NCBI GenBank assembly: GCA_002068815.1 | Contig: MWAC01000170.1 | Coordinates: 1 to 11,050, forward strand | Source: Firmicutes bacterium ADurb.Bin467 | GTDB lineage: Bacteria; Bacillota; Clostridia; Christensenellales; Aristaeellaceae | Length of the DNA: 11,050 nucleotides | Reading direction: 5' to 3' | In this document: positions 6,470-9,490 of the stretch, in pieces | How the letters are laid out: every line of letters begins with the position of its first letter | Numbering within the stretch: position 1 is the first letter of the stretch | The notes under the pieces: model-generated | Databases searched by the model: none | Told to the model about the DNA's origin: nothing | What the model saw: the letters and a program-made list of their open reading frames with translations, nothing else | Made by a program: the position numbers and the translations under genes

Positions 6470-9400
6470 ATGAAGGTTACGGGTCTTCCGGAGCTTAAAA
6501 TCATACGCGACGACTACCTCGCGAAGCTGAACGCTTACAAGTACCACATTCTGGTCTGCGGCGGCGCCGGCTGCGTCTCATCGGGCTGCCAGGACGTTGA
6601 GAAGGCGCTTCTCGCGGCGCTCGAGCAGCACGGGCTCAGGGATCAGGCGCTCGTTCTCGAGACCGGCTGCATAGGCACCTGCGCGGTCGGGCCGGTCATG
6701 CTGATCGAGCCGGACGGCGTGTTTTACACAAAGCTCACGCCCGACTCGGCGAAGGAGATCGTGCAGGCGCACCTGGTCAACGGCGAAATCCTCAAGCAAT
6801 ATACGTTCTACGACCATTCGCTTAGGAAGCACGTGCCGAAGATCGAGGACATCAACTTCTTCCGCGAGCAGGTCAAGATCGCGCTTCGCAACTGCGGCGC
6901 GATGGAGCACGCGCGCATCGAGGCGTACATCGCCCGGGACGGATATCAGGCTGCGGCAAAGGCGCTCACCGGCATGACTGGCGCGGACGTCGTCAACGAG
7001 ATCAAGGCGTCCGGGCTGATGGGGCGCGGCGGCGCGGGCTTCCCGACCGGCGTCAAGTGGGAGGCCGGGCTCAAGGCCCCGGGGCCGATCAAATACATCG
7101 TCTGCAACGCCGACGAGGGAGACCCCGGCGCGTTCATGGACCGCTCGATCATCGAGGGCGACCCGCACTCCGTGGTCGAGGGCATGCTGATCGGCGGATA
7201 CGCGATCGGCGCGCATCTGGGCTATGTGTACGTGCGCGCGGAGTACCCGCTCGCGATCGCGCGGCTCGAAAAGGCGCTGGAACAGGCGCGCGAGATGGGG
7301 CTTCTGGGCAAGGACATCTTCGGAAGCGGCTTCGACTTCGACATCGAGATACGCATCGGCGCCGGCGCGTTCGTCTGCGGCGAGGAGACCGCGCTCATGA
7401 ACTCGATCGAGGGCGAGCGCGGCGAACCCCGGCAGAAGCCGCCGTTCCCGTTCCAGAACGGCCCAGCGTGGTACGCGGGCTTCGGAACCGAGAAGAGCAA
7501 GGGCACGAAGGTGTTCGCGCTCGCGGGCGACATCACGAACACCGGCATCGTCGAGGTGCCGATCGGGACGCCGCTGGGAAACATCTTGTTCGACATCGGC
7601 GGCGGCGTGCCGGGGCGCAAGCAGTTCAAGGCCGCGCAGATCGGCGGGCCGTCCGGCGGCTGCCTGACGCGCGAGAACCTGAACACGCCGACCGACTACT
7701 TAGACATCAAGAAGCTCGGCGCGATCATGGGCTCCGGCGGCCTGATCACGATGAACGAGGACACCTGCATGGTCGATACCGCGCGCTACTTCCTCGATTT
7801 CATCAAGGATGAGTCCTGCGGAAAGTGCGTCTCCTGCCGGCTCGGAACGAAGCGCATGCTCGAGATACTCGAGCGCATCACGCGCGGCGAGGGCGAGGAG
7901 GGGGACATAGAGCTCCTCGAGGAGCTCGGCGAGATCATCCAGGAGACCGCGATCTGCGGCCTCGGCCAGACCGCGCCGAACCCGGTCCTGAGCGCGATCA
8001 AGAACTTCCGCGACGAGTTCGAGGAGCACATCCGCTACAAGCGGTGCCGCGCGGGCGTCTGCTCTTCGCTGTTCATCTCGCCCTGCGAGAACACCTGCCC
8101 GGCGAACGTCAACGTGCCCGGCTATACGTCCTTGATCGCCGAGGGGCGCTTCATCGACGCCTACAACCTGATCCGGCAGGAGAACCCGTTCCCGGCCGTC
8201 TGCGGGCGCATCTGCACCAGGCCCTGCGAGAGCAAGTGCCGCAGAAGGACGCTCGACGAGGCGGTCGCGATCTGCGATTTGAAGAAGTTCGTCGCCGACT
8301 ACGCGCACAAGCATGAAAAGGCGTTCATCAAGGACATCATCTTCCCGAAGAACGGCAAGAAGGTCGCGATCATCGGCGCGGGCGCGGCGGGGCTCACCTG
8401 CGGGCACTATCTCGTGCGCATCGGCTACGAGGTCGACGTCTATGAGGGCGAGGACGTCGCCGGCGGCGTGCTCGCGTACGGCATCCCCGAGTACCGGCTG
8501 CCGATGGAGGTGCTGCAGCACGAGATCAACCTCATCGAGCAGGAGGGCGTCATCGTCCACCTGAACACCGAGGTCGGGCGCGACATCGCGTTCGACTACC
8601 TGCGGAGCGACAGCGACGCGATCTTCGTCTCGACCGGCACGCAGCTCCCGCAGAGGGCCGACATCCCGGGCGAGGACCTGAAGGGCGTCATTCATGGCGT
8701 AGACTTCCTGAAGAAGGTGAAGCTGAACCGCGAGGTCGAGGTCGGCAAAAACGTCGTCATCATCGGCGGCGGCAACACCGCGGTCGACTCGGCGAGAACC
8801 GCGCTTCGCAAGGGCGCGAAGAACGTGACGATACTCTACCGCCGCACGCAGAACATGATGCCCGCCTACGAAAACGAGGTGCACGAGGCGATCGAGGAGG
8901 GCGTCAAGGTCATACCGCTCGCGCAGCCGGTGCGCTTCATCGGCAACAAGGACGGCCACGTCGTCGAGGTCGAGTACAAGAAGATGACGCTCGGCGAGTT
9001 CGACTCGAGCGGCCGGCGCAAGTCCGTGCCGAGCGACAAGCCGACGCAGTTCCTCGAGGCGGACACCGTCATCCCGGCGATCAGCCAGTACGCCGACCTC
9101 CCGTTCATCCCGGTCGGCGAGATCGGCCGCACGCAGTGGGGCACGTTCACCGTCGACCACGACACGATGATGACGACGATGCCCGGCGTGTTCGCCGGCG
9201 GCGACATCGTGCGCGGCCCGGACAGCGTCATACAGGCGATCGCCGACGGCAAGAAGGCCGCGATCGCGATCGACAAGTACCTGGGCGGGCGCGGCGTATT
9301 GAACCGCGGCGAGGAGATCAAGTTCTCCCCGTTCGAGGACGACGACGACGTGATGGAGCTCCCGCGCTATCCCTTGGACATGCTTGAGCTGGAGAAGCGC

Positions 9401-9490
9401 AAGGGCAGCTTCGACGAGGTCGTGCTGGGCTATCACAAGCTCACCGCGATGGCCGAGGCGATGCGCTGTCTCCACTGTGAAAGGAGGTAG
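6470..9490 (+). CDS. hydB: HydB/NuoF-like subunit fused to a GltD/NfnB-like FAD-NAD(P) oxidoreductase
   Basis: A 1006-residue fusion. Residues 25-115 are a thioredoxin-like [2Fe-2S] domain (Cys30, Cys35, Cys67, Cys71). Residues 130-420 are the NuoF FMN/NADH domain and SLBB part (GRGGAGFPTG from 185, NADEGDPGAF from 213, GAFVCGEETAL from 299). Residues 435-515 hold a [4Fe-4S] site (Cys450, Cys453, Cys456, Cys496). The HydB-like linker CRAGVC (526-531) leads into a GltD/NfnB-type module: paired cluster cysteines 539, 543, 578, 582, 586 and 590; FAD motif GAGAAG (636-641); NAD(P) motif GGGNTA (766-771) with YRRT (790-793) and an MPA segment; FAGGD at 908-912; and a CLHC end (1000-1003). HydB of known trimeric bifurcating hydrogenases ends instead in a small 2[4Fe-4S] domain. 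About 24 residues carrying the flavin-site NNVET motif are absent after Gly331. ATG 6470 follows AGGAGGT (6455-6461). The NuoF and GltD calls are firm; the joint role is inferred. Confidence 0.9.
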   Translation: MKVTGLPELKIIRDDYLAKLNAYKYHILVCGGAGCVSSGCQDVEKALLAALEQHGLRDQALVLETGCIGTCAVGPVMLIEPDGVFYTKLTPDSAKEIVQAHLVNGEILKQYTFYDHSLRKHVPKIEDINFFREQVKIALRNCGAMEHARIEAYIARDGYQAAAKALTGMTGADVVNEIKASGLMGRGGAGFPTGVKWEAGLKAPGPIKYIVCNADEGDPGAFMDRSIIEGDPHSVVEGMLIGGYAIGAHLGYVYVRAEYPLAIARLEKALEQAREMGLLGKDIFGSGFDFDIEIRIGAGAFVCGEETALMNSIEGERGEPRQKPPFPFQNGPAWYAGFGTEKSKGTKVFALAGDITNTGIVEVPIGTPLGNILFDIGGGVPGRKQFKAAQIGGPSGGCLTRENLNTPTDYLDIKKLGAIMGSGGLITMNEDTCMVDTARYFLDFIKDESCGKCVSCRLGTKRMLEILERITRGEGEEGDIELLEELGEIIQETAICGLGQTAPNPVLSAIKNFRDEFEEHIRYKRCRAGVCSSLFISPCENTCPANVNVPGYTSLIAEGRFIDAYNLIRQENPFPAVCGRICTRPCESKCRRRTLDEAVAICDLKKFVADYAHKHEKAFIKDIIFPKNGKKVAIIGAGAAGLTCGHYLVRIGYEVDVYEGEDVAGGVLAYGIPEYRLPMEVLQHEINLIEQEGVIVHLNTEVGRDIAFDYLRSDSDAIFVSTGTQLPQRADIPGEDLKGVIHGVDFLKKVKLNREVEVGKNVVIIGGGNTAVDSARTALRKGAKNVTILYRRTQNMMPAYENEVHEAIEEGVKVIPLAQPVRFIGNKDGHVVEVEYKKMTLGEFDSSGRRKSVPSDKPTQFLEADTVIPAISQYADLPFIPVGEIGRTQWGTFTVDHDTMMTTMPGVFAGGDIVRGPDSVIQAIADGKKAAIAIDKYLGGRGVLNRGEEIKFSPFEDDDDVMELPRYPLDMLELEKRKGSFDEVVLGYHKLTAMAEAMRCLHCERR

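Follow-up and report, generated by a model that had tools for sequence, protein, structure and literature searches.

A HydB-type subunit with a GltD module in the place of its ferredoxin arm: a candidate H2/NAD/NADP-coupling [FeFe]-hydrogenase from Firmicutes bacterium ADurb.Bin467

The locus and the layout of the fused chain

The window—by which we mean the whole stretch of DNA analyzed, the 11,050 nucleotides of contig MWAC01000170.1 of Firmicutes bacterium ADurb.Bin467, assembly GCA_002068815.1—is contig C170 of its own genome (1.67 Mb in 320 contigs, 74 percent complete) and carries a gene whose single open frame encodes a HydB-type hydrogenase subunit followed by a complete GltD-type module for flavin-adenine dinucleotide (FAD) and nicotinamide-adenine dinucleotide (phosphate), NAD(P)H. 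This gene, the HydB–GltD fusion, lies between hydC and hydA (Table 1). The first-pass annotation had placed a flavin mononucleotide (FMN)/NADH domain and an FAD/NAD(P) module on one chain adjoining a HydA with H-cluster motifs, which arrangement is borne out by the frame, by the Pfam matches, and by the motifs. The Pfam order is thioredoxin-like [2Fe-2S] (residues 24-100), 51K FMN/NADH (178-326), NADH_4Fe-4S (436-520), Fer4_20 (528-616), and Pyr_redox_2 (630-927), with the GltD-like module beginning near residue 533 and reaching residue 1006. The sequence matches in the PDB switch at one point, from HydB chains up to about residue 535 to StnC/NfnB-type chains from about 536, and are far better than chance would give (E 2.2e-197 for a HydB chain, 1.6e-120 for a Stn-type chain); among the 50 PDB matches listed none was a chain with both halves, which is no proof of absence.

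Table 1. Features of the hydC–fusion–hydA locus (positions in the window; residue numbers of the fusion)
Feature	Position	Strand	Basis
hydC, thioredoxin-like [2Fe-2S] subunit, 162 amino acids	5961..6449	+	PF01257, 1.6e-46
HydB–GltD fusion, 1006 amino acids	6470..9490	+	open frame, Pfam, PDB sequence matches
N-terminal thioredoxin-like [2Fe-2S] domain, C30, C35, C67, C71	6539..6769	+	PF01257 at 24-100
FMN/NADH domain, AFM (221-223), GAGAF (F301)	7001..7462	+	PF01512
72-nucleotide in-frame deletion junction	7460..7466	+	alignment with 48 other fusions and P0001
GGPSG motif (392-396)	7643..7657	+	alignment of 49 fusions
Hinge (B2/Zn) ligand C433	7766..7768	+	aligns with Cys438 of NiFe-HydB
[4Fe-4S] cluster B1 ligands C450, C453, C456, C496	7817..7957	+	49/49
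Hinge (B2/Zn) ligands H520, C526, C531, including CRAGVC	8027..8062	+	align with His525, Cys531, Cys536 of NiFe-HydB
StnC-type GltD module, at the site of the HydB ferredoxin arm	8066..9487	+	
Module cluster-binding part: C539, C543, C582, C586, C590, Lys605	8051..8317	+	alignment of 49 fusions
FAD Rossmann motif GAGAAG	8375..8392	+	G636, G638, G641 invariant in A1
NAD(P) Rossmann motif GGGNTA and YRR (790-792)	8765..8845	+	alignment of 49 fusions
C-terminal CxxC (1000-1003), permuted cluster ligands	9467..9478	+	aligns with the NfnB N-terminal CxxC
hydA, [FeFe]-hydrogenase catalytic subunit, ends at the contig end	9496..11049	+	PF02906, 1.3e-94

A retained HydB core and hinge and an exchanged arm

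Residue conservation was scored over 49 aligned fusions, the window copy among them. The [2Fe-2S] cysteines C67 and C71 are present in all 49 and C30 and C35 in 46, whereas the B1 ligands are complete throughout. According to Losey (2020; PMC7311640), the marks of a bifurcating beta-subunit are an Ala or Glu plus a Met near the NADH site, a Phe near the FMN, and GGPSG; Feng (2022; PMC8880783) gives AFM, F282, and GGPSG as specific to bifurcating HydB. In the fusions A221, M223, and F301 are invariant, F222 is found in 46/49, and GGPSG is complete in 48/49—its two first glycines, proline, and last glycine being invariant and S395 being replaced by Ala in the remaining one—so that, save for Tyr222 in three proteins and that Ala395, the AFM/F/GGPSG set of the HydABC bifurcating [FeFe]-hydrogenases (A3/Bfu) is kept.

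The B2 site consists, according to Feng et al., of Cys438, Cys476 (Cys or Thr), Cys531, Cys536, and His525; and Furlan et al. place a Zn there and call the site a possible hinge of the mobile bridge. Aligned onto the fusion, that site of NiFe-HydB becomes C433, T471, C526, C531, and H520; position 471, with Thr in 34 and Cys in 13 of the 49 proteins, fits the Cys-or-Thr rule, and the other four ligands are found in 49/49, the B2/Zn hinge of HydABC (A3/Bfu) thus being intact in every fusion. The motif CRAGVC (residues 526-531, nucleotides 8045-8062), which had been taken for the preserved HydB linker, is indeed there, but since it aligns with two of those ligands, and all are present in 49/49, the motif belongs to the hinge and is more than a linker. 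We also considered CRAGVC as a source of ligands for the clusters of the module and rejected this assignment: seven cysteines and a lysine of the module already make eight ligands, and the motif aligns with the hinge. Past the hinge, ordinary HydB enters ferredoxin motifs, whereas the fusions enter the GltD module, which in 31/31 of them occupies the place of the C-terminal 2[4Fe-4S] ferredoxin arm (B3/B4) of HydABC. In this replacement lies the difference from the HydABC enzymes of T. maritima, A. woodii, and T. kivui (Bfu).

The module is of the StnC type, as had been guessed beforehand: it is circularly permuted and has Lys605 in 48/49 fusions (His in one) where NfnB has Glu. Its seven cysteines—the five of the cluster-binding part and the two of the C-terminal CxxC—are present in 49/49, as are G766, G768, and A771 of the NAD(P) motif together with YRR. 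The YRR and GxGxxA elements fit NADP(H), as first supposed, and the C-terminal CxxC is present, though as a segment moved there by circular permutation, which supplies the remaining cluster ligands of the module. The Lys605-type residue is a cluster ligand in StnC, where it is tied to a non-bifurcating FAD; because the module is of that type, permuted and with Lys for Glu, its FAD is probably a plain NADP(H) site, and an NfnB-type bifurcating FAD is held unlikely on those same two grounds. The fusion shares with NfnAB a GltD fold with FAD, NADP(H), and two clusters, but NfnB is unpermuted, with an N-terminal CxxC, a Glu ligand, and a bifurcating FAD; and the genome of the window encodes a separate NfnAB-like pair (contig C35). 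With the StnABC/NfnABC transhydrogenases (S. ovata 8oh5; C. saccharolyticus 9bov; T. sibiricus 9n5v) the fusion has in common the permuted module and its Lys ligand. In those enzymes, however, the GltD part sits on the NuoG-like A-type subunit (StnC), StnB keeps its C-terminal arm, and no H-cluster is present, whereas here the module is on the HydB chain, whose partner is an H-cluster HydA.

That HydA scores 755.9 bits against a cut-off of 765 for NCBIfam group A6, despite ending at the contig edge, and contains the motifs TSCSPGW, MPCTAKKFE, and EVMGCPGGC. The four H-cluster cysteines required of a HydA in HydABC (A3/Bfu) are found in it and in 20/20 further HydA proteins near fusions. Since in those 20 relatives only 68-152 residues with at most two Cys follow the third H-cluster motif, they have no further [2Fe-2S] domain, in difference from HydABC (Bfu); the window HydA ends before that point. 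TSCSPGW occurs in 20 of the 21 fusion-adjacent HydA proteins and SSCSPGW in one; in a comparison set of 41 HydA proteins, which holds the window HydA once more as L002, 21 have TSCCP instead of the TSCSP seen beside fusions. The Ser of TSCSP presumably sits at the position of the proton-relay Cys of HydA.

A contrast is offered by proteins that we call A2-like for their likeness to HydDB group A2 (putatively glutamate synthase-linked; GltD without NuoF), although HydDB assigns that group by the protein following HydA and these precede it. They combine an NADH_4Fe-4S bundle with the same permuted, Lys-type module beside HydA, have no FMN domain, and occur in 17/291 genomes of the class; the fusion, with its NuoF-type FMN domain, departs from the A2 definition. 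Our A2-like set comprised 20 loci (L119-L138), and two further cases were viewed with wider flanks; no HydC match was found in the fetched stretches (flanks of about 1.5 kb, shorter at L123), and in 3/20 the HydA match covers the N-terminal part only. All 20 keep C433, H520, C526, the cluster cysteines, and the Lys, but none has C531 at the aligned place, and position 471 is Leu or Ile. Because the A2-like proteins, with neither an FMN domain nor a HydC match, are without C531, the full hinge goes with the FMN/HydC machinery, which contrast is the main support, at the level of sequence, for a putatively moving arm in the fusion. The A2-like enzymes themselves may reduce NADP+ with H2 without any FMN, instead of serving glutamate synthase. 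A mutual exclusion of fusion and A2-like protein was also considered, no genome being on both lists (21 and 17 of 291); as only about 1.2 were expected, we give it no weight.

Proposed electron flow and competing explanations

Sequence and fold together show the domain order, the retained signatures, the hinge, the arm ligands, the module type, and the H-cluster partner; the electron path, the coupling, the nucleotide specificity, and the direction are what we infer. The reading that we prefer, and to which we give about half of our credence, is that of a bifurcating H2/NAD/NADP hydrogenase with NADP+ at the end of its low-potential arm. The enzyme would be a HydABC-type [FeFe]-hydrogenase of the cytoplasm whose B3/B4 arm has been exchanged, just past an intact hinge, for the StnC-type module. 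Electrons from H2 would leave the H-cluster, cross HydA and B1, and reach the FMN; the high-potential branch would form NADH at that FMN, while the low-potential branch would run through the [2Fe-2S] clusters of HydC and HydB, then through the pair of [4Fe-4S] clusters in the arm, and from there to the FAD and NADP+, in the place of ferredoxin. The net reaction, 2 H2 + NAD+ + NADP+ <-> NADH + NADPH + 2 H+, would be reversible and ferredoxin dispensable. Earlier, a coupling of H2, NAD, and NADP, possibly with ferredoxin, had been suggested; the first part of that suggestion is the best reading, but NADP+ probably replaces ferredoxin instead of adding to it, because the module stands where the ferredoxin arm was.

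We assumed cell potentials, taken from the literature, of -280 mV for NADH, -500 mV for ferredoxin, -414 mV for H2, and -370 mV for NADPH. With these assumed potentials H2 would be in equilibrium with NADH at 4.4 Pa, with NADH plus NADPH at 128 Pa, with NADPH at 3.7 kPa, and with NADH plus ferredoxin at 16.6 kPa, in which circumstance an NADH/NADPH enzyme would lie between the non-bifurcating and the ferredoxin-coupled hydrogenases. By extension, there may be a ferredoxin-free class of bifurcating hydrogenases, for which the mobile HydABC arm is a plug-in part—here an NADP+ reductase, a single complex thereby dividing H2 between NAD+ and NADP+—and in which the HydBC core, armed in this way, works with further partners too, formate dehydrogenase-like ones among them, a proposal that we offer tentatively, leaning a little toward doubt.

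Several observations weigh against H2/NAD/NADP bifurcation. Position 222 is Tyr in 3/49 fusions. The S. wolfei HydABC, whose HydB is without B3/B4, does not bifurcate, so that bifurcation could be lost along with the arm; unlike the fusions, however, that enzyme is of the non-bifurcating signature type. In Stn, the GltD part feeds electrons in by way of the NuoG side and not by a HydB arm. In 5/20 A2-like proteins a Cys two residues past C526 is a possible stand-in for C531; and the A2-like enzymes as a group suggest that B1 can supply the module in the absence of FMN, making simple branching possible. At 9/30 genome loci the fusion has a different partner, or the stretch that was fetched shows no HydA. 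The window copy is without 24 residues of the FMN domain, as either a real deletion or an assembly error. No purification, assay, or other biochemistry of any such fusion was found in the open-licence PMC literature, subscription papers (e.g. Calusinska 2010) being outside that scope.

Part of this evidence bears on a non-bifurcating, branched enzyme, in which the FMN (for NADH) and the FAD (for NADPH) would both hang on the HydA–B1 chain to give an uncoupled H2:NAD(P)+ oxidoreductase and transhydrogenase. The A2-like proteins, which carry the same module on a B1 bundle beside HydA with neither an FMN domain nor a nearby HydC, so that the module presumably draws on B1 directly, speak for it along with the S. 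wolfei enzyme; but in the fusions the hinge is complete and the marks of bifurcation are kept, in contrast to the TFK and GAGAY of the second HydB copies of tandem loci and to the missing C531 of the A2-like proteins. We consider this branched scheme unlikely. Less probable still is an enzyme with three acceptors, in which ferredoxin would dock on the cluster domain of the module or on HydA and be coupled along with H2, NAD, and NADP. In Nfn, electrons bound for ferredoxin exit via the clusters of the GltD-type subunit. That route, outlined in print, and the broader reading of the first-pass annotation agree with such an enzyme; yet the ferredoxin-like B3/B4 arm, proposed to be the ferredoxin site, is gone, and the cluster ligand of the module is of the StnC and not of the NfnB type.

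To have the GltD part feed GltB in a glutamate synthase-linked enzyme, as the HydDB A2 label and the discussion of a 2018 paper suggest, seems to us very improbable. Two Lokiarchaeal fusions adjoin a HoxU-like gene, with a Glu_synthase-domain gene next in the one that was Pfam-scanned; but PF01645 has no match in the 74 percent complete genome of the window, is below the cut-off in the relative G027, and lies in the other four fusion-bearing relatives on contigs other than that of the fusion (in fragmented assemblies), while the permuted layout and the Lys are unlike stand-alone GltD/NfnB proteins. On the PF01645 survey we rejected this link as the main explanation.

A different question, compatible with any of these schemes, is whether the copy in the window functions in its organism. 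With respect to the near-identical P0001 (1030 amino acids), that copy has, apart from three substitutions, 24 codons fewer after residue 330/331, a gap that had escaped the first-pass annotation; the missing residues hold PTIINNVET in P0001, and the segment is present in 48/48 other aligned fusions, with P336, N341, V342, and G355 (P0001 numbering) invariant in P0001 and those 48. The segment, to judge by complex I, is one that we take to touch the FMN. Without it, at most an H2:NADP+ path would be left, and the model confidence for residues 321-330, around the pocket, is lower in the window copy than in P0001 (37 against 71, P0001 having no run of 3 or more residues below 50). The frame is nevertheless kept, the other motifs are intact, and the segment is present in P0001, so that the gap may be an artifact of an assembly in 320 contigs; a loss of function in this organism we hold to be rather unlikely, and the argument at the level of the family is independent of the deletion.

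Distribution, operon partners, and prior descriptions

The fusion was found in 21/291 sampled genomes of the class, that of the window included, and in 16 of 236 best-quality ones, at a threshold of E <=1e-150 for the module part, all 22 matches lying in frames of 1008-1094 amino acids. In the 20 such genomes of the class besides that of the window, the order hydC–fusion–hydA holds for 21/21 fusions, with the HydC domain upstream and an H-cluster domain 668-689 nucleotides downstream. A protein search gave 7997 candidates at E <=1e-30, not all of them fusions; the best 120 of these were all full-length fusions of 1025-1051 amino acids, 67-97 percent identical, labeled in the database, for example, as NADH-quinone oxidoreductase subunit NuoF or as FAD-dependent oxidoreductase. 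The rarity initially implied does not stand: the domain order fills the best listed matches, recurs across the class, and was in print in 2018.

Among 59 other relatives five have the fusion (whole in G016, G019, and G027; as pieces at contig ends in G055 and G056), and none of the six of the same genus, some of whose genomes are incomplete. A separate HydB-type match, whatever its arm, is present in at least 45/60 genomes, and the genome of the window additionally has a HydB piece with a Fer4 arm and a HydA (contig C264). Because of these two counts, the fusion is to be regarded as a patchily distributed and usually second isozyme. In 11 genomes of the phylum searched with P0001 one further full fusion appeared (G348), which is outside the counts given here. 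A 1778-amino-acid frame, G349:C41:63580-67050, has a spacer separating its HydB-like from its GltD-like parts and is perhaps a different HydB fusion. In the tree of the HydB core, the 31 fusions do not group alone, their ancestor spanning 79/86 tips and the fusions falling into eight fusion-only groups with mixed support; in the module tree the 49 fusions likewise fail to form one group. The window has no Rex operator at up to 3 mismatches and no Rfam match at the gathering score, and among viral contigs no relative was found.

With respect to prior descriptions, a 2018 paper (PMC6163223) reports a trimeric hydrogenase of V. guaymasensis with a GltD domain and suggests a second NAD(P)H site; the second trimeric hydrogenase of Vallitalea guaymasensis L81 (peg.3894-3896), whose HydB has GltD after the FMN/NADH domain, resembles the fusion by description from the genome only. 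Kremp (2020) and the 2023 Stn paper have GltD on the other subunit, and the main text of Schut (2022) mentions none of GltD, NfnB, NfnL, glutamate synthase, fused, or fusion. The fusion is a widespread variant of the HydABC family in anaerobes, uncharacterized as far as the open-licence PMC literature shows, that may feed electrons from H2 into NADH and NADPH together. The bifurcation mechanism of HydABC and the role of its mobile arm are debated, and the fusion is a natural domain-swap experiment, with core and hinge unchanged and the arm different. If H2 were coupled to NAD+ and NADP+, the arm alone would decide the low-potential product; a sizeable share of anaerobes would have a direct H2–NADPH link, perhaps filed as ferredoxin-coupled in present hydrogenase classes; and metabolic models of anaerobic communities would need changing.

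Partners were counted at 30 fusion loci, after dropping the window locus (L001) and frames below the length or coverage limits, among them L034-L036. Downstream of the fusion, 18 loci have a HydA that extends through the H-cluster motifs and one a HydA ended by the contig edge, while two fusions run off the contig; four loci are without HydA in the fetched stretch, one has an FdhA-type partner, two a HoxU-like one, and two a partner resembling only the N-terminus of HydA. L034 and L035, where HydA is complete but the fusion frame partial or broken, make up with the 18 loci the 20 HydA proteins used for the motifs. At L026 (8004-13792) the fusion is followed by a 905-amino-acid molybdopterin protein, formate dehydrogenase-like (FdhA-type); at the Lokiarchaeal L031 (8245-13664) by a HoxU-like gene and a Glu_synthase-domain gene, with L032 similar by BLAST. 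The tandem operons L021, L023, L024, and L028, all four among those 18, run hydC, fusion, second hydC, second hydB (the TFK, GAGAY copy), and hydA, and perhaps encode a single complex that has two sites for NADH and one for NADP. At L005 (13175-17538), a Stn-like cluster of HydC, HydB, and a 681-amino-acid GltD protein lies convergent beside the fusion hydrogenase.

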